Below are positions 1 to 8,099 of a stretch of 64,000 nt of DNA, piece by piece (the first letter of the stretch is position 1; every line of letters starts with the position of its first letter). Origin of the DNA: Leeuwenhoekiella sp. (GTDB lineage: Bacteria > Bacteroidota > Bacteroidia > Flavobacteriales > Flavobacteriaceae). The translations under genes were made by a program, and so were the position numbers. A model generated the notes under the pieces. It worked only from the letters and a program-made list of their open reading frames with translations, was not told where the DNA came from and searched no databases. The stretch is from positions 1-64,000 of the forward strand of contig PAPI01000009.1 in NCBI GenBank assembly GCA_002708845.1, given 5' to 3'.

Positions 1-608
1 ACCATTTGCATGGTTTTAATTGTAAATCGTTTTGCGTAAACAGATAGCCTGATAGAGCTGTTGATAAGCAATACTGCGATAAATGTAAAGACTCCGCTAA
101 TAATAAGTATCCAGAGGCTTATCTTTTTTATGTTGTCATTTAATAAAGAAATGAGCGGTTGATCATAAGAAACCTCTTCTACAAAGTCTTTGCTCGATAT
201 ATTGTCTGAAATATCTTTAACCTGCGTAGCGTCTACAAAGTCTGCTTTTAAATAAACGTCTATTGAATTTTGCAGCGGATTATACCCCAGAAAATCCATA
301 AAATTCTCACCGATCTCCTTACTGTGTTCTTCTGCAGCTTCCTCTTTAGAGACAAATTGGGTTGATTTGGTGTACTTGGCAAGTGTAAGGCTTTTTTCAA
401 GTTGTTTGATTTCAACCTCTTTGGCTTCGTCTTTCAGGTAAATGGTAAGTGCGATTTGTTCTTTAAAATGATCGGCTACTTTCTTGGAGTTGAGCACCAA
501 AAGTCCCAAAACTCCCAGTAAAAACAGCACTAATGCTATACTCAATATCACCGAAAAATAGGACGAGATCAATCTGCGACGCTGAAATTTTTCAAAAGAT
601 GATGCCAT
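1..608 (-). CDS. ftsX: Cell division protein FtsX, C-terminal part cut by window edge
   Basis: Reading the minus strand from an ATG at 606-608 gives a continuous frame that leaves the window at base 1 (about 202 codons seen). The product begins MASSFEKFQRRR, then a first transmembrane segment (about residues 18-42), an extracytoplasmic region of roughly 130 residues, and a second transmembrane segment (about 170-190). This is the topology of FtsX, the permease-like partner of the ATPase FtsE. FtsEX transmits a cell-division signal to peptidoglycan hydrolases. A TAnnTTTG box lies 34 bases upstream. Divergent from the small hypothetical gene and leuS. The missing end should hold the last two membrane helices. 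Identification rests on topology and sequence recognition. Confidence 0.85.
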   Translation of the reverse strand, partial: MASSFEKFQRRRLISSYFSVILSIALVLFLLGVLGLLVLNSKKVADHFKEQIALTIYLKDEAKEVEIKQLEKSLTLAKYTKSTQFVSKEEAAEEHSKEIGENFMDFLGYNPLQNSIDVYLKADFVDATQVKDISDNISSKDFVEEVSYDQPLISLLNDNIKKISLWILIISGVFTFIAVLLINSSIRLSVYAKRFTIKTMQM

Positions 609-641
609 ACTGCTGTTTACAATTTAAATACCACTAGTGGG

Positions 642-649
642 CAAAAATA
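642..649 (-). promoter_or_regulatory. Predicted -7 promoter element for ftsX
   Basis: The minus strand reads TATTTTTG, an exact match to the Bacteroidota -7 consensus TAnnTTTG, 34 bases upstream of the ftsX ATG. No convincing -33 TTG was found at ideal spacing. Confidence 0.5.
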
Positions 650-851
650 CTAAAGTTCGTGCTTCTTAAACGAAACCTTTAGGTTTTTTGTATGAAGACC
701 TTTAAGAATATAAAAACGTCGAAATCAATTCTGGTTACTATATCCAAGTCTAAGATTTTTAGAATTTCATTTATAACATATAATTACCAAGTTATTTCCT
801 AGAAATGAAAGGCATGTTTTTTGATACACTTATTTTATAAACTCTATATAA

Positions 852-1412
852 GTGAAAAACATTATCCTCATAGTTCTGATGATTTTTTGTTTGTATGCAT
901 TCTCTCAGAAAACTACAGATTCTCTGGAATTGTGGACCATGTTTACAATAGGGAATCTCGTGAATTCAAAAGCTCATGAATTTGCCGGTCAGGGTTTACC
1001 AATTGAAATCATCCACAAAACAGGCGATGTTTTTTGGGAGACCTACGACGAAGATGCTGAGTTTAAATCTGAAATCGAATACATAAAAGCACATAACGAT
1101 TCCGTTTGGACAGCATTAGAAAAGCAAGGTTTCAAATTTCCAGAAGAACGATACAATGAGAATTTTCAGATTGAACGGACTAATCTGGAACTGGCTCTTA
1201 AACTCTTCCATGAAAGTCCGTTGATTAAAACCTATCACGAGAATCGCCGCAGGAATAGATTTCCATATGCTGATGTTAAAAAGCTTGCAGCTGGTGTTTA
1301 TGAAATAGCGGTCGGGTCATTTGACGTTGAAAATCCGGAAAATACCTACAAGGATGAATTTCTAGGTAAAATTGATATCAAAACCAGACAAACCACCATT
1401 CAGAAACTTTAG
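852..1412 (+). CDS. Hypothetical secreted protein
   Basis: A 186-residue protein starting with GTG; no in-frame ATG lies nearby. Residues 1-18 form a hydrophobic signal peptide ending near FSQK. The rest is mixed and charged with no repeats, no cysteine-rich motif and no domain I recognise. An RRRNR basic patch lies around residues 131-135. The gene stands alone between divergent ftsX and leuS, whose promoter box begins 20 bases after this stop. It is probably exported to the periplasm or cell surface. Function unknown. The GTG start is supported only because it places the signal peptide at the N-terminus. Confidence 0.6.
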   Translation: MKNIILIVLMIFCLYAFSQKTTDSLELWTMFTIGNLVNSKAHEFAGQGLPIEIIHKTGDVFWETYDEDAEFKSEIEYIKAHNDSVWTALEKQGFKFPEERYNENFQIERTNLELALKLFHESPLIKTYHENRRRNRFPYADVKKLAAGVYEIAVGSFDVENPENTYKDEFLGKIDIKTRQTTIQKL

Positions 1413-1431
1413 CATAGGAGTTTAATAATCG

Positions 1432-1439
1432 TAAATTTG
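1432..1439 (+). promoter_or_regulatory. Predicted -7 promoter element for leuS
   Basis: TAAATTTG matches TAnnTTTG exactly and lies 42 bases before the leuS ATG at 1482. The possible upstream TTG start codon at 1437 falls inside this element, which argues for the ATG. Confidence 0.55.
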
Positions 1440-1481
1440 CCGCTCATTAAAAATGCGCCTGGCGCAAAGCAATACACGGTA

Positions 1482-4400
1482 ATGAATTACGATTTCAACG
1501 CGATAGAAAAGAAGTGGCAACAGTTTTGGAAAGAACACAAAACTTTTGAAGCCCAAAACAACAGCGATAAGCCTAAATATTATGTGCTTGATATGTTTCC
1601 CTATCCCTCGGGAGCGGGCTTGCACGTAGGGCATCCGCTAGGGTATATCGCCAGTGACATTTACGCGCGTTATAAGCGTCATCAAGGCTTTAATGTATTG
1701 CATCCGCAGGGATATGACTCGTTTGGACTTCCGGCCGAGCAGTATGCGATTCAAACCGGGCAACACCCGGCAATCACTACCGAAACCAATATTGCCCGTT
1801 ACCGTGAGCAACTGGATAAAATCGGTTTTTCATTTGACTGGAGTCGCGAGGTGCGCACGTCGAATCCTGAGTATTACAAGTGGACACAGTGGATTTTTAT
1901 TCAGCTTTTTGAAAGTTGGTATAACAACGACATCAACAAAGCGGAGCACATTGACACACTAATCGCCAAATTTGAAGCTGAAGGAAATGCTTCGGTAAAT
2001 GCCGTGTGCGATGAGGATGTAGAAGCTTTTACTGCTGAAGATTGGAAAAACGCTTCCGCGAAAGCGAAACAAGAAATACTACTAAAATACCGCTTAACCT
2101 ACCTGGCCGAAACCGAAGTGAACTGGTGTCCGGCTTTGGGTACCGTTTTGGCAAACGATGAGATTGTTAATGGCGTTTCAGAACGTGGCGGGCATCCCGT
2201 AGTGCGAAAAAAAATGACCCAGTGGAGTATGCGTATCAGCGCCTACGCACAGCGTTTATTAGACGGTTTGCAAAATATAGACTGGCCACAGCCGCTTAAA
2301 GATTCACAAACCAACTGGATTGGTAGAAGTAAAGGAGCGATGGTCAAATTCCCCCTAGCCCCCAAAGGGGGAACTCCAAGTAAGCCGGGATACAAGACCG
2401 GCGGAAATAATTCAGCTTTGTTGAATGAAAAAGCAAAAAAAATGCGATCTCAGCCTACTGAAGCAGAACAGCTGCTTTGGGAAGTTTTAAGTGGAAAAAA
2501 GCTGGATTCAAAATTTAGGAGACAACACGTTATTGATGAATATATCGTTGATTTTGTATGTCTTTCGAAGAAACTTATAATTGAAGTAGACGGTTCTGTT
2601 CACGATAATCAACAGGAAAAAGATCAGGCAAGAACAGAAGTACTAGAAGATTTAGGATATCAAGTTATTCGGTTTAAAAATGAAGAAGTTCTTCATAATT
2701 TGCAAAAGGTGATCGATCAGATCACAGCAAGTTTAGATGCGTTTGTTCCCCCTTTGGGGGTTAGGGGGATTGAAGTCTTCACCACCCGTCCCGACACCAT
2801 TTTTGGAGTGACCTTTATGACCCTGGCGCCGGAGTTGGACCTGGTACAGGAGATTACCACACCTGAGCAAAAAGCGGAGGTTGATGCGTATATAGAGGCG
2901 ACGGCTAAACGTAGCGAGCGCGAGCGTATGGCTGATGTCAAGACCATTTCGGGAGCATTTACCGGGGCTTATGCTGAGCATCCGTTTACTAAAGAGCCCA
3001 TCCCGATCTGGATAGGTGATTATGTACTGGCCGGTTATGGTACTGGTGCGGTGATGGCGGTGCCTTGCGGGGATCAGCGGGACTGGGATTTTGCAAAACA
3101 TTTCAATATCCCGATTAAGAATATTTTTGACGGAATTGATATCAGCGAGCAGGCTTACGCCGAAAAGGACAATACGCCACTTAAAGATTCTGACTTCTTA
3201 AACGGACTTTCATACAAGCAGGCGCTTCCTAAAGCGATTGAAGAATTGGAGAAAATTGATGCCGGTAAAGGAAAAGTCAATTACCGCCTGCGTGATGCGG
3301 TGTTTAGCCGTCAACGCTATTGGGGCGAACCCTTCCCGGTGTATTATGTGGACGGTATGCCGCAAATGATTGATGCGAAATACCTGCCATTAGAACTCCC
3401 CGAAGTAGAAAAATACTTACCCACCGAAGAAGGCGAACCACCGCTGGGCCGTGCTGATGTTTGGGCCTGGGATATCAACCAAAATAAGGTGGTAAGCAAC
3501 GAAAACCTCTCCCCCGTGGGGGGAGACCGAGAGGGGGACAACGGAGTTTACCCACTCGAACTGAACACGATGCCGGGTTGGGCAGGAAGCAGCTGGTATT
3601 TCTTCAGATATATGGAGAAAGCCTTGCGTGACGAAGCTTTTGCCTCAAAAGAAGCAATGGAGTACTGGCAGGATGTGGATTTATACATTGGCGGAAGCGA
3701 ACACGCAACCGGACACTTGTTATATAGCCGCTTCTGGGTGAAATTTTTAAAAGACCGCGGCTTTGCACCGGTGGAAGAACCTTTTAAAAAGCTGATCAAC
3801 CAGGGGATGATTTTGGGGACGAGTGCTTTTGTGTATAGACTTTCTCAGGTTGGAGGTTTTGATGGCAGCAGTTCTGATTTGGAAGATTTGGTCAAAAGTC
3901 ATCAGGTCATTATATCTGGAGTATTAAAAGATAAATTGGAAAAGGATGAAATAGAGAAAAGTGAGTTTGAGTCTGATTTGCTTTCAATCCTAAAAGGATA
4001 TTTTGGTTCCAAGGTTCTTACTGCAAAATATCGTCAGCCTCAATCTCTGCACGTTGATGTTTCATTAGTGAATAATTCGGATGAAATGGATATTGATGGT
4101 TTTAGAAATTGGAGACCTGAATTCAATGAAGCAATATTTTTAGGAGATAATGGCCGTCAGTTGATTGCGGGAAATAATGAAACGTTCACAGTAGGCCGCG
4201 AAGTCGAAAAAATGTCTAAATCCAAATACAACGTGGTGAATCCCGATGATATTTGTGAGGAATACGGGGCCGATACGCTGCGTATGTACGAGATGTTTTT
4301 AGGTCCGTTGGAGCAGGCAAAACCCTGGAATACGGCAGGGATCACCGGCGTACATAACTTCCTTAAAAAATTGTGGAAACTATACCATCAGGTGGACAAA

Positions 4401-4907
4401 GCAGGAAATCTGGGTGACTTTGAAGTTTCAGATGCGCCGGCTTCAAAAGAGGCGATGAAAGTGCTTCATAAAACTATCAAAAAGGTACAGGAAGATATTG
4501 AGAACTTCAGTTTTAATACTTCGGTATCTACGTTTATGATCGCGGTTAATGAACTTTCGGCGTTAAAATGCAACAGCCGTGAAGTGCTGGAACCTTTGGC
4601 GGTTTTAATTTCACCTTATGCACCACACATCGCAGAAGAGTTGTGGAGTTTATTGGGTAACGAAGGTTCGATTGCAACGGCGCCGTTTCCAGAGTTTGAC
4701 GCCAAGCATTTGGTAGAAAGTAGCAAAGAATACCCGATTTCATTTAACGGAAAAATGCGCTTTACGATGGAGCTTCCGCTGGATCTTTCTAAAGAAGAAA
4801 TCGAGAAAGCAGTACGTGCACACGAGAAAACTAAGGAATATTTGGGTGGTCGCGAACCTAAAAAAGTCATCGTCGTTCCCGGGAAGATCGTGAATTTTGT
4901 AGGCTGA
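1482..4907 (+). CDS. leuS: Leucyl-tRNA synthetase with in-frame DUF559 nuclease insertion
   Basis: Class I synthetase charging tRNA-Leu. From ATG 1482 it has 1141 residues, well above the usual 920-960 of flavobacterial LeuRS. Signature HVGH lies at residues 48-51 and KMSKS at 910-914. The editing (CP1) domain keeps TTRPDT (434-439), GTGAVMAVP and the GDQRDWDFA motif (about 519-540), so charging and proofreading look intact. Residues about 290-429 are foreign: a DUF559 domain bounded by inverted repeats, lying between GAMVKF and [10 protein letters not shown], which are normally joined by a short hairpin. A second insertion of about 11 residues ([11 protein letters not shown], about 676-686) is encoded by a GC-rich palindrome. 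Residues about 785-850, before KMSKS, are also poorly conserved. The stop overlaps the next gene's ATG. The ATG start is preferred over TTG 1437 because homologues begin there. Confidence 0.95.
2350..2374 (+). repeat. Left inverted repeat of the DUF559 element
   Basis: 25 nt containing its own hairpin: five C, AAA, five G (2359-2371), preceded by another run of five C and TAG. It is translated as FPLAPKGGT. It pairs with 2745-2769 with one mismatch (G at 2358 against the partner's A). Confidence 0.85.
2745..2769 (-). repeat. Right inverted repeat of the DUF559 element
   Basis: 25 nt, the inverse complement of 2350-2374 at 24 of 25 positions. It carries the same internal hairpin of five C, TTT, five G. 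Translated as VPPLGVRGI, after which normal LeuRS sequence (EVFTTRPDT) resumes at once. Confidence 0.85.
3506..3537 (-). repeat. Short GC-rich palindromic element in frame in leuS
   Basis: Read on the minus strand it is a C5 run, a short spacer, a second C run, a tiny loop and a G run. This is the same plan as each end of the DUF559 element. CTCCCC (3509-3514) can pair with GGGGAG (3520-3525), or CCTCT (3506-3510) with AGAGG (3530-3534). It adds about 11 residues ([11 protein letters not shown]) between KVVSNEN and [12 protein letters not shown], where LeuRS is normally contiguous. It looks like a nuclease-free relative of the larger element. Confidence 0.6.
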
Positions 4908-5182
4908 TGTTTGATTTCGATTTTATTGAAATATTGGGTCTTGTGGCCGCAGTACTGACCACTTCGGCATTTGCACCACAGGTATACCACACGTATAAGA
5001 CCAAAGATGTTAGCGGGCTCTCCCTGCCTATGTACTTTATCTTTTTAAGCGGTTTGCTGCTGTGGATTCTTTATGGCGTGCAAACCGGCAGTATTGCGGT
5101 GATTGCTGCCAACGTGGTTACCAGCGGACTGGTGATTGTTCTTATTGTTTTAAAGATCAAATACGGCAAAACCAGGTCCTGA
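4907..5182 (+). CDS. SemiSWEET family small sugar transporter
   Basis: A 91-residue membrane protein of three transmembrane helices (about residues 7-26, 39-57 and 62-84) with the PQ-loop signature FAPQVYHTYKTKDVSGLS. That is the half-size bacterial version of MtN3/SWEET sugar facilitators, which dimerise to form the pore. Its ATG overlaps the leuS stop by one base (TGATG), so it is translationally coupled to leuS, although no functional link is obvious. Substrate unknown; related proteins move mono- or disaccharides. Confidence 0.85.
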   Translation: MFDFDFIEILGLVAAVLTTSAFAPQVYHTYKTKDVSGLSLPMYFIFLSGLLLWILYGVQTGSIAVIAANVVTSGLVIVLIVLKIKYGKTRS

Positions 5183-5322
5183 CGAGACATTTTCTATAGT
5201 TATTTAGAGGCCTTTTTTGAGGATGTTAAATGAGACATTCGCAAAAGAGGCCTTGTGTTTTTAAGGAATTCTACCCGGCTCTCCTTTTAAGAACCTTTAA
5301 TTTTCTGCACAAAGCACAGATT

Positions 5323-6435
5323 ATGATTATAGGAGTTCCCAGGGAGATTAAAAACAATGAAAACCGGGTAGGGATAACGCCCGGTGGCGCTTTTGAATTG
5401 ACCAAACGCGGCCATACGGTGTACATTCAAAAAGATGCCGGAAACCACAGTGGTTTCACAGACGCCATTTATCAGGAAGCAGGCGCCCAGATTTTAGATA
5501 CGATTGAGGAGGTGTACGACATCGCCGAGATGATTGTAAAAGTCAAGGAGCCCATAGAGCCCGAATATCATCTGATCAGGGAGAATCAAATTGTATTCAC
5601 CTATTTTCATTTTGCCTCAAGTGAAGTGCTCACTCAGGCCATGCTTAAAAGTAAGAGTATCTGTATCGCTTACGAGACGGTCGAAGAACCAGATCGCAGT
5701 CTGCCCCTGTTAACCCCCATGAGTGAAGTCGCCGGCCGAATGGCGATACAGCAAGGCGCCCGGTATCTTGAAAAACCCGTCAAGGGTCGTGGTGTGTTGC
5801 TGGGTGGTGTACCCGGAGTAACACCCGGAAAGGTTTTGGTGCTAGGAGCCGGAGTAGTGGGAATTCAGGCCGCTAAAATGGCAGCAGGTCTCGGGGCTCA
5901 CGTGACTATATTAGATATAAGTATGAAACGTTTGCGTTATGTAAATGATATTATGCCCCCACACGTGGTGACGGAGTTTTCAAACGAATTCAATATACGC
6001 AGACATATAAAAACCCACGACCTGATTATAGGTGGGGTGCTCATTCCCGGTGCCAAAGCGCCTAAACTCATCACACGCGACATGCTTAAAGAGATGCGAC
6101 CAGGGACAGTGATAGTTGATGTTGCAGTAGATCAGGGAGGTTGTGTAGAAACCTCACGACCTACCACGCACGAAGATCCCGTATTTATTATAGATGATGT
6201 GGTGCATTATTGTGTGGCCAATATGCCGGGAGCCGTGCCTTACACGTCAACCGTAGCTTTGACTAATGTAACCTTGCCTTATGTGCTTAAAATTGCCGGG
6301 AAAGGCTGGGTAGAAGCTTGCAAAGCCCATGTTGATTTACAGAAAGGGCTTAATCTCATTAAAGGCGAAGTGGTATATCAGGAAATCTCAGAAGCCTTTG
6401 ATCTCCCATATAAACCGGTAGAATTCTTCATTTAA
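5323..6435 (+). CDS. ald: Alanine dehydrogenase
   Basis: NAD-dependent oxidative deamination of L-alanine to pyruvate and ammonia, or the reverse. With ATG at 5323 (MIIGVPREIK) the protein has 370 residues, the usual length. An upstream in-frame ATG at 5230 adds 31 unrelated residues and is rejected. Visible family features: the N-terminal IGVPREIKNNENRVG motif, the catalytic-histidine region VFTYFHFASSE (about residue 98), a Rossmann fold with VLVLGAGVVGIQAA (about 168-181), and a C-terminal half ending AFDLPYKP. It stands alone between the leuS operon and the zinc peptidase. Related pyridine nucleotide transhydrogenase subunits share the fold but not the length or C-terminus. Confidence 0.92.
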   Translation: MIIGVPREIKNNENRVGITPGGAFELTKRGHTVYIQKDAGNHSGFTDAIYQEAGAQILDTIEEVYDIAEMIVKVKEPIEPEYHLIRENQIVFTYFHFASSEVLTQAMLKSKSICIAYETVEEPDRSLPLLTPMSEVAGRMAIQQGARYLEKPVKGRGVLLGGVPGVTPGKVLVLGAGVVGIQAAKMAAGLGAHVTILDISMKRLRYVNDIMPPHVVTEFSNEFNIRRHIKTHDLIIGGVLIPGAKAPKLITRDMLKEMRPGTVIVDVAVDQGGCVETSRPTTHEDPVFIIDDVVHYCVANMPGAVPYTSTVALTNVTLPYVLKIAGKGWVEACKAHVDLQKGLNLIKGEVVYQEISEAFDLPYKPVEFFI

Positions 6436-6519
6436 AGCTACGCCAAAAAGGCAGATGTGATTTTCGGTGTATTTATTGCTGAATATTCTTTAGTTTTAAT
6501 ACACTAAAATTTAAAAATT

Positions 6520-7227
6520 ATGTTTGGAGGATATATGGGTTACTACATTCTGGTGGGTATTATCGCACTGGTAAGTTGGGCCGTAAGTAATAAATTAAAA
6601 AGCAAGTTTAAAGAATACTCGCAGATTCACTTGCAAAACGGGATGAGCGGTGCTGAGATTGCCCGCAAGATGCTTAGTGATAACGGGATCAATGACGTAA
6701 AAGTCATTTCAGTACAGGGCCAGTTGACCGACCATTACAATCCCGCCAATAAAACGGTAAACTTGAGTGAGCCGGTTTACAATCAGCGTAATGCCGCTGC
6801 GGCTGCAGTAGCAGCACACGAATGCGGGCATGCCGTGCAACATGCAAAAGCCTACAGTTGGTTAACCATGCGTTCTAAATTGGTACCTGTAGTTAGCGTA
6901 GCTTCGCGGATGTCTATGTTTGTGATTATTGGGGGTGTAGTGTTGATGTCAATCATTGGTTCTGGCCTTGGAATGACGGTGGCGCTTATCGGTTTAGGGC
7001 TTTTTGCAATGGGAACGATCTTCGCATTTATTACGCTTCCGGTAGAGTATGATGCCAGTAACCGTGCACTGGCCTGGTTAGAGTCTTCAAATATGTTGAC
7101 GCGTCAGGAACACGACGGTGCAAAAGACGCGCTTAAATGGGCGGCACGTACGTATGTGGTGGCTGCGATCGGTTCGCTGGCAACCTTATTGTACTTCGCG
7201 TTGCAGATTTTTGGCGGAAGAAGATAA
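6520..7227 (+). CDS. Membrane zinc metallopeptidase, YugP family
   Basis: A 235-residue membrane protein matching the neutral zinc metallopeptidase family (Pfam Zn_peptidase_2). It has an N-terminal helix (about 5-22), the zinc-binding motif HECGH (about residues 106-110, in AAHECGHAVQHA), then two or three hydrophobic helices (about 125-180) and a C-terminal one (about 208-228). The third zinc ligand is probably E184 in LPVEYDASNRA. Cellular substrate unknown. A near-consensus TAGTTTTA box lies about 22 bases upstream, and a strong terminator follows. The surplus ATG-rich start MFGGYMGYY allows either Met. Confidence 0.88.
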   Translation: MFGGYMGYYILVGIIALVSWAVSNKLKSKFKEYSQIHLQNGMSGAEIARKMLSDNGINDVKVISVQGQLTDHYNPANKTVNLSEPVYNQRNAAAAAVAAHECGHAVQHAKAYSWLTMRSKLVPVVSVASRMSMFVIIGGVVLMSIIGSGLGMTVALIGLGLFAMGTIFAFITLPVEYDASNRALAWLESSNMLTRQEHDGAKDALKWAARTYVVAAIGSLATLLYFALQIFGGRR

Positions 7228-7252
7228 TATTCCAGAATTTTATAAACTTAAT

Positions 7253-7288
7253 AACCCCTTCAATAAAATGCTGTTGAAGGGGTTTTTT
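7253..7288 (+). terminator. Rho-independent terminator after the zinc peptidase gene
   Basis: An 11-bp stem (AACCCCTTCAA at 7253-7263 with its complement at 7274-7284) closes a 10-nt loop and runs into a T tract to 7288. Confidence 0.85.
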
Positions 7289-7337
7289 GTCACAGGCGGG
7301 GTTTCTGTTCGTAATTATTTTGACCAATCAAAAAACT

Positions 7338-8099
7338 ATGATGCCTGTAAACGCCAATTGCTTCCTGCTTATTTTTTGCCTGGGATTTCTTGCTTTTAAT
7401 CTCAATGCTCAGGAAAATAGACTCTTAAAAGGAATCGTAACTATAAATGACGAAGTTGCTTCAGATGTAATTATTGAAAATTTGGCTAGCGGCCAGCGAA
7501 TAGTAACAGATGAAGAAGGCGCATTTGCAATTAACGGAAGCTTAGGTGATTCACTTTCTGTAGCGCACGCCGATAATAAGTTTTTTATTTTGGTTTTAAG
7601 CGAAAGTGACTTTGCAAGCGACCTGCTAAAAATTGATTTGAACCAGATGTCAATTGAATTAGATGATGTTATAGTTGAAGATTTTAGCCACATTAATGCA
7701 TATGATCTGGGAATAATAGATCATCCCGTAGAAATACCCACGCGATATGAAAGGCGCTTGTACACTACCGGAGATTTTAAAATGATACACTTACTCTCGA
7801 TTTTAGGAGGTTCCCTGCAACTGGATCCTATCATTAATAAAATTTCAGGGAGAACTAAAAGAATGAAACGCTATCTAAAAATTGAAAGGCTATCTGAAAA
7901 CTTAGATTTTCTTAAAGAACACTACAGTAGCTATATAAAGGCAAGTTTAGAAGTTGAAGATGCCGAATTAAACCGGTTTTTATATTACCTTATAGAAGAA
8001 ACTAACATTGCTGAATTGACAACCCAAAACCAGGATAACCAACTTAAATTTTTCATTCAGGATCATTGGATCAGGTATCAAGAACTTATAGCAGAATAG
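7338..8099 (+). CDS. Secreted protein with carboxypeptidase-regulatory-like domain, function unknown
   Basis: 253 residues from ATG 7338 (or 7341). The longer TTG reading from 7287 starts inside the preceding terminator and is rejected. Residues 1-25 are a signal peptide ending near LNAQE. The next 75 or so residues (LLKGIVTINDEVASDVIIENL...GQRIVTDEEGAFAI) look like the CarboxypepD_reg-like beta-sandwich common in Bacteroidota surface proteins. The remaining 150 residues are helical and charged with no recognised domain. It is a free-standing gene followed by a bidirectional terminator. Probably periplasmic. Confidence 0.75.
   Translation: MMPVNANCFLLIFCLGFLAFNLNAQENRLLKGIVTINDEVASDVIIENLASGQRIVTDEEGAFAINGSLGDSLSVAHADNKFFILVLSESDFASDLLKIDLNQMSIELDDVIVEDFSHINAYDLGIIDHPVEIPTRYERRLYTTGDFKMIHLLSILGGSLQLDPIINKISGRTKRMKRYLKIERLSENLDFLKEHYSSYIKASLEVEDAELNRFLYYLIEETNIAELTTQNQDNQLKFFIQDHWIRYQELIAE

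Follow-up and report, generated by a model that had tools for sequence, protein, structure and literature searches.

The leucyl-tRNA synthetase gene leuS of the marine bacterium Leeuwenhoekiella sp. (Flavobacteriaceae; assembly GCA_002708845.1) carries an in-frame insert that encodes a DUF559 nuclease domain between palindromic ends. It lies near the start of the 64,000 nt of contig PAPI01000009.1 analysed here, referred to as the window, in which all features described are on the forward strand. The gene extends from about 1479 to 4907 (1142 aa counted from the ATG at 1479), and a single open frame, opening at TTG 1437 and ending at 4907, spans the whole insert; its translation keeps both the HVGH and the KMSKS motif. 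A left palindromic end, TCCCCCTAGCCCCCAAAGGGGGAAC (2350–2374), identified by inverted-repeat search and folding and able to fold alone as a hairpin, opens the element, and its inverted copy, GTTCCCCCTTTGGGGGTTAGGGGGA (2745–2769), closes it. These 25-nt arms are complementary at 24 of 25 positions (96%) and lie 370 nt apart; their outer ends enclose 420 bp, i.e., 140 codons, in frame. Between them lie a linker with the motif GYxTG...LL (2375–2423), which by eye resembles the stretch preceding DUF559 in many in-frame copies, and the DUF559 domain (PF04480; 2424–2735, by Pfam and genome search) with its conserved DF...ExDG..H residues. In the protein of 1479–4904 this domain covers residues 316–419 (Pfam E 4.8e-37; 126.6 bits against a curated cut-off of 20.6) and is flanked by LeuRS domains. 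Directly 3′ of the element begins the conserved editing-site segment EVFTTRPDT (2772–2798). A first-pass annotation, made from the sequence alone, had described 25-nt inverted repeats around a 420-bp in-frame segment and a DUF559 domain in the LeuRS editing domain ahead of TTRPDT, with the signature motifs kept. Both descriptions were borne out, with the correction that the domain fills 2424–2735 only and not the whole 420 bp.

The same site was then read in 13 genomes of the genus, each of which gave one LeuRS match (G codes denote compared genomes, with G000 for that of the window, and L codes individual loci). Occupancy is patchy: DUF559 lies at exactly this site in eight of the 13 genomes, in four diverged types. 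Type A is carried by G000 and G144, type B by G302, G306, G303 and G299, type C by G308, and type D by G309, in which paired palindromes stand on both sides of the nuclease. G302 is identical to L215 (Leeuwenhoekiella marinoflava DSM 3653) over the 1400 bases compared, and G309 to L216, another Leeuwenhoekiella, over 1000 bases; G308 is 9% contaminated and completeness of G309 is 81%, and nothing rests on these two alone. The comparison with relatives also provided the empty site sought: five of the 13 genomes are without DUF559 there, with a plain turn in G301, a different palindrome, TGTCACTTCGAGCGCAGTCGAGAAGT, in G300, and AATTC-type repeats in G304, G305 and G307. Judged by the silent codons of leuS, two carriers have an empty genome as their nearest relative: G300 for the window's genome and G305 for G303. 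Somewhere in the genome, at least one DUF559 match occurs in all 13. A second leuS was not found in the window's genome, in which the editing-region query had one match and the gene looks single-copy.

A decayed copy exists as well. The same turn of leuS in G002 (L264) holds an in-frame relic that still scores 56.6 bits against the DUF559 profile and in which the active site is broken, the D of ExDG..H being replaced by E and the H lost in an eight-residue gap; no palindromic ends are visible at this locus. A homing element would be expected to go through invasion, decay and reinvasion.

Sequence comparison shows that the cassette has spread laterally to the same site, decoupled from its host gene. 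We compared silent-codon identity (the same amino acid encoded by the same codon) between insert and leuS for all seven same-type pairs, using Fisher's test. The insert was clearly more similar than its host gene in G306/G299 (143/146 silent-identical codons vs 501/708 in leuS, p 4.6e-16), G303/G299 (110/138 vs 382/697, p 1.6e-8), G306/G303 (110/137 vs 402/701, p 1.5e-7) and G000/G144 (118/133 vs 510/718, p 4.6e-6). The excess was marginal for G302/G299 (92/135 vs 442/742, p 0.036) and not significant for G302/G306 (93/134 vs 426/690, p 0.056) and G302/G303 (81/130 vs 430/705, p 0.43). Conversely, host flanks within the genus are up to 0.95 identical where type A and type B inserts share 0.54. 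The six type A and B genomes form one clade with support 98 in a host tree of 45 carriers and are split over two starred sets in the insert tree. In approximately unbiased (AU) topology tests on 43 rows, from which the long branches L200 and L241 had been removed, the insert data rejected the host topology as a whole (p 1.2e-53), and the host data in turn rejected the insert topology (p 4e-9). One carrier, L200 on contig JAGVGK010000018.1, is recorded as Candidatus Paceibacterota, a different phylum. Its insert occupies the same LeuRS site and reaches an identity of 0.58 with a Bacteroidota insert, the LeuRS flanks of the same pair being 0.46 identical. This record is a metagenome bin, and its host assignment is therefore the depositor's; the L200 LeuRS itself lies far from other LeuRS in the tree.

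Insert-free LeuRS has a short turn at this site. From 29 newly fetched family loci, of which L270 could not be parsed, 28 were readable, and 26 of these have 23–48 residues from after WIG(R/K)S to TTRPDT; the two with an insert-sized segment are L268 (DUF559) and L264 (the relic). The segment that follows, 161 aa beginning with EVFTTRPDT, found a match in 30 of 31 family genomes. An AlphaFold model of the insert together with the editing domain, built on 42 aligned rows, predicts that both fold, an outcome that the first-pass annotation had asked about (mean predicted local distance difference test, pLDDT, 79; predicted template modelling score, pTM, 0.50). Over the insert, residues 131–240 of the modelled piece, pLDDT ranged from 73 to 92 by ten-residue blocks. 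The best matches of the model in the PDB are LeuRS, and the editing part superposes on the Streptococcus pneumoniae editing domain (4k47) with a root-mean-square deviation of 1.2 over 171 columns. Low pLDDT at both junctions fits flexible linkers. An intron or intein was ruled out: no Hint/intein Pfam domain was found in the leuS protein at E 0.001, no Rfam intron matched positions 1–8000 of the window up to E 0.5, and the open frame reads through.

At this same turn, L083, L084, L088, L091, L244, L253 and L255 have different short in-frame repeats, most of them palindromic. Several different repeats at one place make the turn a general hot or tolerant site. The gene of the window contains a second such place, an in-frame palindrome without DUF559 (CTCTCCCCCGTGGGGGGAGACCGAGAGGGGG, 3507–3537, from the sequence and its hairpin pattern), and the equivalent place of leuS is occupied by DUF559 in L226, L134, L137 and L145. 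A further long LeuRS stretch lies at 3832–4185, between GMILG and KMSKS, which we take to be common in Bacteroidota.

Beyond the genus, DUF559 was matched at E 1e-10 or better in 110 of 299 genomes of the family. Among the 150 family matches listed, 48 lie in open frames of more than 200 aa (hand count). The LeuRS site is occupied in 18 of the fetched family genomes, the window's genome included, and other fetched copies lie in MetH, RecG and IleRS, at the end of HisD and at the start of HemD. Across the phylum, 84 of 198 genomes have DUF559. In a set of 80 named loci, the best 80 of a longer list from a search that favoured close kin, 76 of 81 DUF559 frames exceed 200 aa, which is not an unbiased rate. 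Fusion was scored here as a stop-to-stop frame of more than 200 aa, a crude definition that admits frames without a recognised host (e.g., L149).

The hosts backed by Pfam matches are many. They include synthetases (LeuRS, ValRS, an IleRS-type class I synthetase and MetRS), RecG, RecJ, a UvrD-type helicase, the restriction-modification proteins HsdR and N6-methylases, and MetH, MazG, DegT aminotransferase, family III CoA transferase, saccharopine dehydrogenase, glycosyl hydrolase 31, methylmalonyl-CoA mutase, guanylate kinase, IspF (YgbB), histidinol dehydrogenase, coproporphyrinogen oxidase and HemD. In DegT, the CoA transferase, glycosyl hydrolase 31, the mutase and MetRS the cassette interrupts the host domain, which is matched there as two stretches; it lies at one end of HemD, histidinol dehydrogenase, guanylate kinase, IspF, coproporphyrinogen oxidase and saccharopine dehydrogenase. 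By eye, the downstream border of many copies adjoins a conserved segment: TTRPDT in LeuRS, ATTRPETIMGD in ValRS, KGDVHDIGKN in MetH, TATPIPRTL in RecG, FPADFIAEG in IleRS and the P-loop in guanylate kinase. Judged by these motifs, the insertion sites in LeuRS and ValRS look homologous. In-frame relatives in more than 20 other kinds of gene suggest that the element is selfish and is propagated as a spare part within host enzymes.

The only other DUF559 match in the window's genome (C4:186101-186415; L002, L049) is joined to the HemD start; palindrome-like peptides follow this DUF559 domain, and HemD itself contains another. MetH holds two DUF559 copies, at two different places, in both L044 and L188.

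In a tree of the copies, these tend to group by host gene and site (HemD, MetH, RecG and most LeuRS), several deeper branches being weak. The LeuRS copies are not one group: the window's type stands apart and one copy lies beside those of the second LeuRS site, both placements with weak support. Homing gives lineages that are each specialised to one site and jump now and then. Copies inherited vertically in a host gene would cluster too, and descent alone is disfavoured because of the silent-codon excess and the patchiness.

The nuclease is under constraint. Of 186 non-identical copies, all have the D of DF, 185 the E of ExD, 184 its D and 185 the H. Among 110 copies obtained with no motif filter, 107 have DF...ExD intact, as do 80 of the 81 in frames of more than 200 aa; the pattern used for the named loci requires ExDG..H, and conservation there is therefore partly by construction. 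The inserts of G302 and G306 are 90% identical in amino acids, with only 68% of the conserved codons silent-identical. Among known structures, the insert matches PDB 3hrl (E 3.4e-19) and PDB 3r3p, 'Mobile intron protein' (E 2.9e-4 with the single sequence, 2.6e-7 with a profile). The latter is presumably a domain of I-Bth0305I, the type enzyme of the EDxHD homing family. DUF559 also matches six phage records, annotated as 'hint domain protein', 'hedgehog/hint domain protein', 'coil containing protein', 'HNH endonuclease' and, in two cases, not at all; the two hint-annotated records are Vibrio phages (E 1e-6). Plasmid matches number 39 records, and the 15 matches listed are annotated as DUF559, as 'endonuclease domain-containing protein' or without annotation.

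Palindromic ends occur around DUF559 above chance. Within 1500–4800 of the window, the 25-nt arms are the longest inverted pair reported, and the element has an inverted-repeat score of 22, where 40 control windows from the same stretch gave at most 11 and 40 shuffles at most 9. Each arm folds singly as a hairpin, and in the fold of a 431-nt RNA the two pair with each other. The best inverted pair scores at least 14 around 30 of 104 DUF559 copies vs 9 of 2583 control windows from the same loci, and around 9 of 26 stand-alone copies. In the named set, 29 of 76 copies vs 2 of 2777 control windows reach at least 16. Copies near an end or with N were left out of this scoring (6 of 110, and 5 of 81 in the named set). 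Some ends are long: 42 nt at 100% in L127, 53 nt at 92% in L223 and 44 nt at 93% in L190.

The repeat was also sought elsewhere in the window's genome. Four sites of the 64 kb, three within leuS, fit a C-run/G-run hairpin pattern, and the 21-nt repeat core recurs at ten places in the genome with at most three mismatches, eight of them outside the leuS pair. A dominant genome-wide repeat family was rejected, since only these ten places lie within three mismatches of the core. The IleRS gene (by motif) of the same genome has an in-frame inverted palindrome pair without DUF559 (C36:93472-93557; L011, L012). These palindromes are the same as those of leuS and stand directly before FLAWTTTPWTLPSN, at a place that by motif corresponds to the LeuRS site. 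Another in-frame palindrome of this type, with an inverted partner nearby, lies at the start of a gene that we take, by motif, to be HemW (L008, G000:C31:30293-30384).

We interpret the element as a mobile cassette that works like a homing endonuclease, in frame, non-splicing and palindrome-ended, and assign this reading a probability of roughly 0.7. We infer cutting, homing, a use of the palindromes and a tolerated, working fusion protein along the following lines. The unit would be a DUF559 (Vsr-like) endonuclease between inverted, hairpin-forming ends, translated as an extra domain of LeuRS. Made within LeuRS or another host enzyme, the nuclease would nick or cut the insert-free allele near the conserved segment that follows, and repair from the occupied allele would copy the cassette in. 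Counter-selection would be escaped by sitting in a turn of the host protein, not by splicing. New genes would be entered occasionally, at similar places beside conserved segments. The palindromic ends probably serve this rarer step or mark the element boundaries, and where such turns hold palindromes that lack DUF559, these resemble remnants or non-autonomous versions. The first-pass annotation had proposed a self-contained, nuclease-coding palindromic mobile element that keeps the reading frame. The lateral spread and the cassettes in other genes strongly support this interpretation, which was mostly right; in it, the nuclease would drive the movement and the fused protein would be functional. 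None of the three findings named beforehand as evidence against it was made, since the insertion is not shared by all close relatives, the repeat does occur elsewhere and no second leuS match was obtained.

Several observations weigh against the homing-like reading. The insert excess is not significant in two of the seven same-type pairs and marginal in one, against four clear ones. AU tests on the short insert did not reject a single clade, either for the six type A/B carriers (p 0.128) or for the pair L030/L166 (p 0.252), and were dropped as proof of separate origins. A signature of co-conversion, i.e., identity falling away on both sides of the insert, was not convincing (suggestive on one side only, in one pair), and no co-conversion tract is used here. 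Clear inverted ends are found in a minority of DUF559 copies only; in the many copies without a clear end pair the ends have therefore been lost or are not needed for upkeep. Residue conservation was counted on copies that are mostly best-scoring (E 1e-10 or better), and score-ranked lists favour intact nucleases. The relative placement of the two domains is unsure in the model, as the pTM indicates. Finally, other palindromic repeats share the LeuRS turn, and tolerance of the turn alone could concentrate insertions there.

In the strongest alternative, DUF559 mobilises palindromes resembling repetitive extragenic palindromic (REP) sequences, as RAYT enzymes do for GTAG REPs, by excision and insertion at many places, the LeuRS turn being merely tolerant. 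Such transposon-like movement would agree with the inverted ends around DUF559, stand-alone copies included, with the many host genes, with the nuclease-free paired palindromes in IleRS, and with the lack of a Y1 (RAYT-type) transposase match in the window's genome. We nevertheless consider it unlikely: the copies tend to group by host gene and site, if with several weak deeper branches, unlike random insertion, and reading occupied against empty sites, with no formal test, revealed no target-site duplication. Much less credible is a domesticated domain, useful to LeuRS, MetH, RecG and others through DNA or tRNA contact or regulation and kept for host benefit. The amino-acid constraint between G302 and G306 and the preserved catalytic residues would be explained in this way; patchiness within one genus, empty nearest relatives of two carriers, lateral gain, unrelated hosts and a dead relic all speak against it. 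We give equally little weight to a passive spread of insert-bearing leuS alleles by ordinary homologous recombination in which the nuclease has no part. Silent identity does vary along leuS in a mosaic-like manner, nuclease-free repeats occupy the same turn and two of seven pairs show no significant excess, yet in the clear pairs the excess similarity is confined to the insert and does not extend to the flanks, and the nuclease residues are kept across the phylum. An assembly or annotation artefact, conceivable for a draft of 39 contigs, is refuted by same-site fusions in independent assemblies of named isolates, among them those of Leeuwenhoekiella marinoflava DSM 3653 (L215) and of a pair of Gillisia strains (L164, L165).

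Taken further, and with somewhat less assurance than for the cassette itself, we think it probable that these elements form a selfish-element class not described before. Its members would be homing cassettes with palindromic ends and no splicing, resident in essential enzymes as additional domains. Every lineage would be tied to one turn beside an active-site segment (in LeuRS, ValRS, MetH, RecG, HemD and more) and would cross genera and phyla, decay and re-invade, with DUF559-less palindromes as non-autonomous derivatives. If so, bacteria would make many of their essential enzymes as fusion proteins that contain an active selfish nuclease. The nuclease appears to invade as an extra domain that the host protein tolerates permanently, at corresponding positions of several class I tRNA synthetases and within many other enzymes. 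This would account for DUF559 fusions of core enzymes, offers a function hypothesis for a domain of unknown function, and links DUF559 to palindromic repeats whose mobiliser had not been found on searching the window's genome. Within titles and abstract openings, with few subscription journals covered, we found no report of DUF559 inside synthetases or with palindromic ends.

Four known systems invite comparison. Rickettsia palindromic elements are in-frame palindromic inserts in protein genes, and the likeness to them noted in the first-pass annotation holds for a palindromic insert that keeps the reading frame. To our knowledge these elements are without an enzyme of their own, and repeated occupation of one site in relatives is not known for them; because of the nuclease and the same-site recurrence, homing is the better model here. 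Stand-alone DUF559 proteins of the VsrA type in Caulobacter share the Pfam domain and, as described, are free proteins, not part of another enzyme; the VsrA report assigns them to the PD-(D/E)XK superfamily and links them to DNA damage (PMC12907096). In the REPtrons of REP-associated tyrosine transposases (RAYT), a gene likewise lies between short, mutually inverted hairpin palindromes, which are also found singly, and REPs inside genes, tRNA synthetases included, have been reported (PMC3733652). Their enzyme is an HUH tyrosine transposase, in contrast to the DUF559 nuclease of our element, and neither 25-nt arm contains, by reading, a GTAG or CGTC tag. Y1_Tnp (PF01797) had matches in seven of the 13 genus genomes and none in that of the window, and a RAYT was rejected as the mobiliser on this ground.

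Closest are the EDxHD (Vsr-like) homing endonucleases such as I-Bth0305I, with which the cassette shares a sequence-related nuclease (PDB 3r3p), residence in conserved genes and empty alleles in relatives; the intein section of a cyanobacterial paper assigns a DUF559-containing gene to this family (PMC9403480). Another paper places known EDxHD enzymes in group I introns or inteins, or free-standing, and holds that homing endonucleases invade conserved essential genes by means of a self-splicing intron or intein (PMC3943268). The leuS insert differs in this carriage: it is an element in which no splicing unit was found, read through in the host protein and bounded by palindromic ends. We therefore file it as working like the EDxHD homing family and not as a plain member of it.

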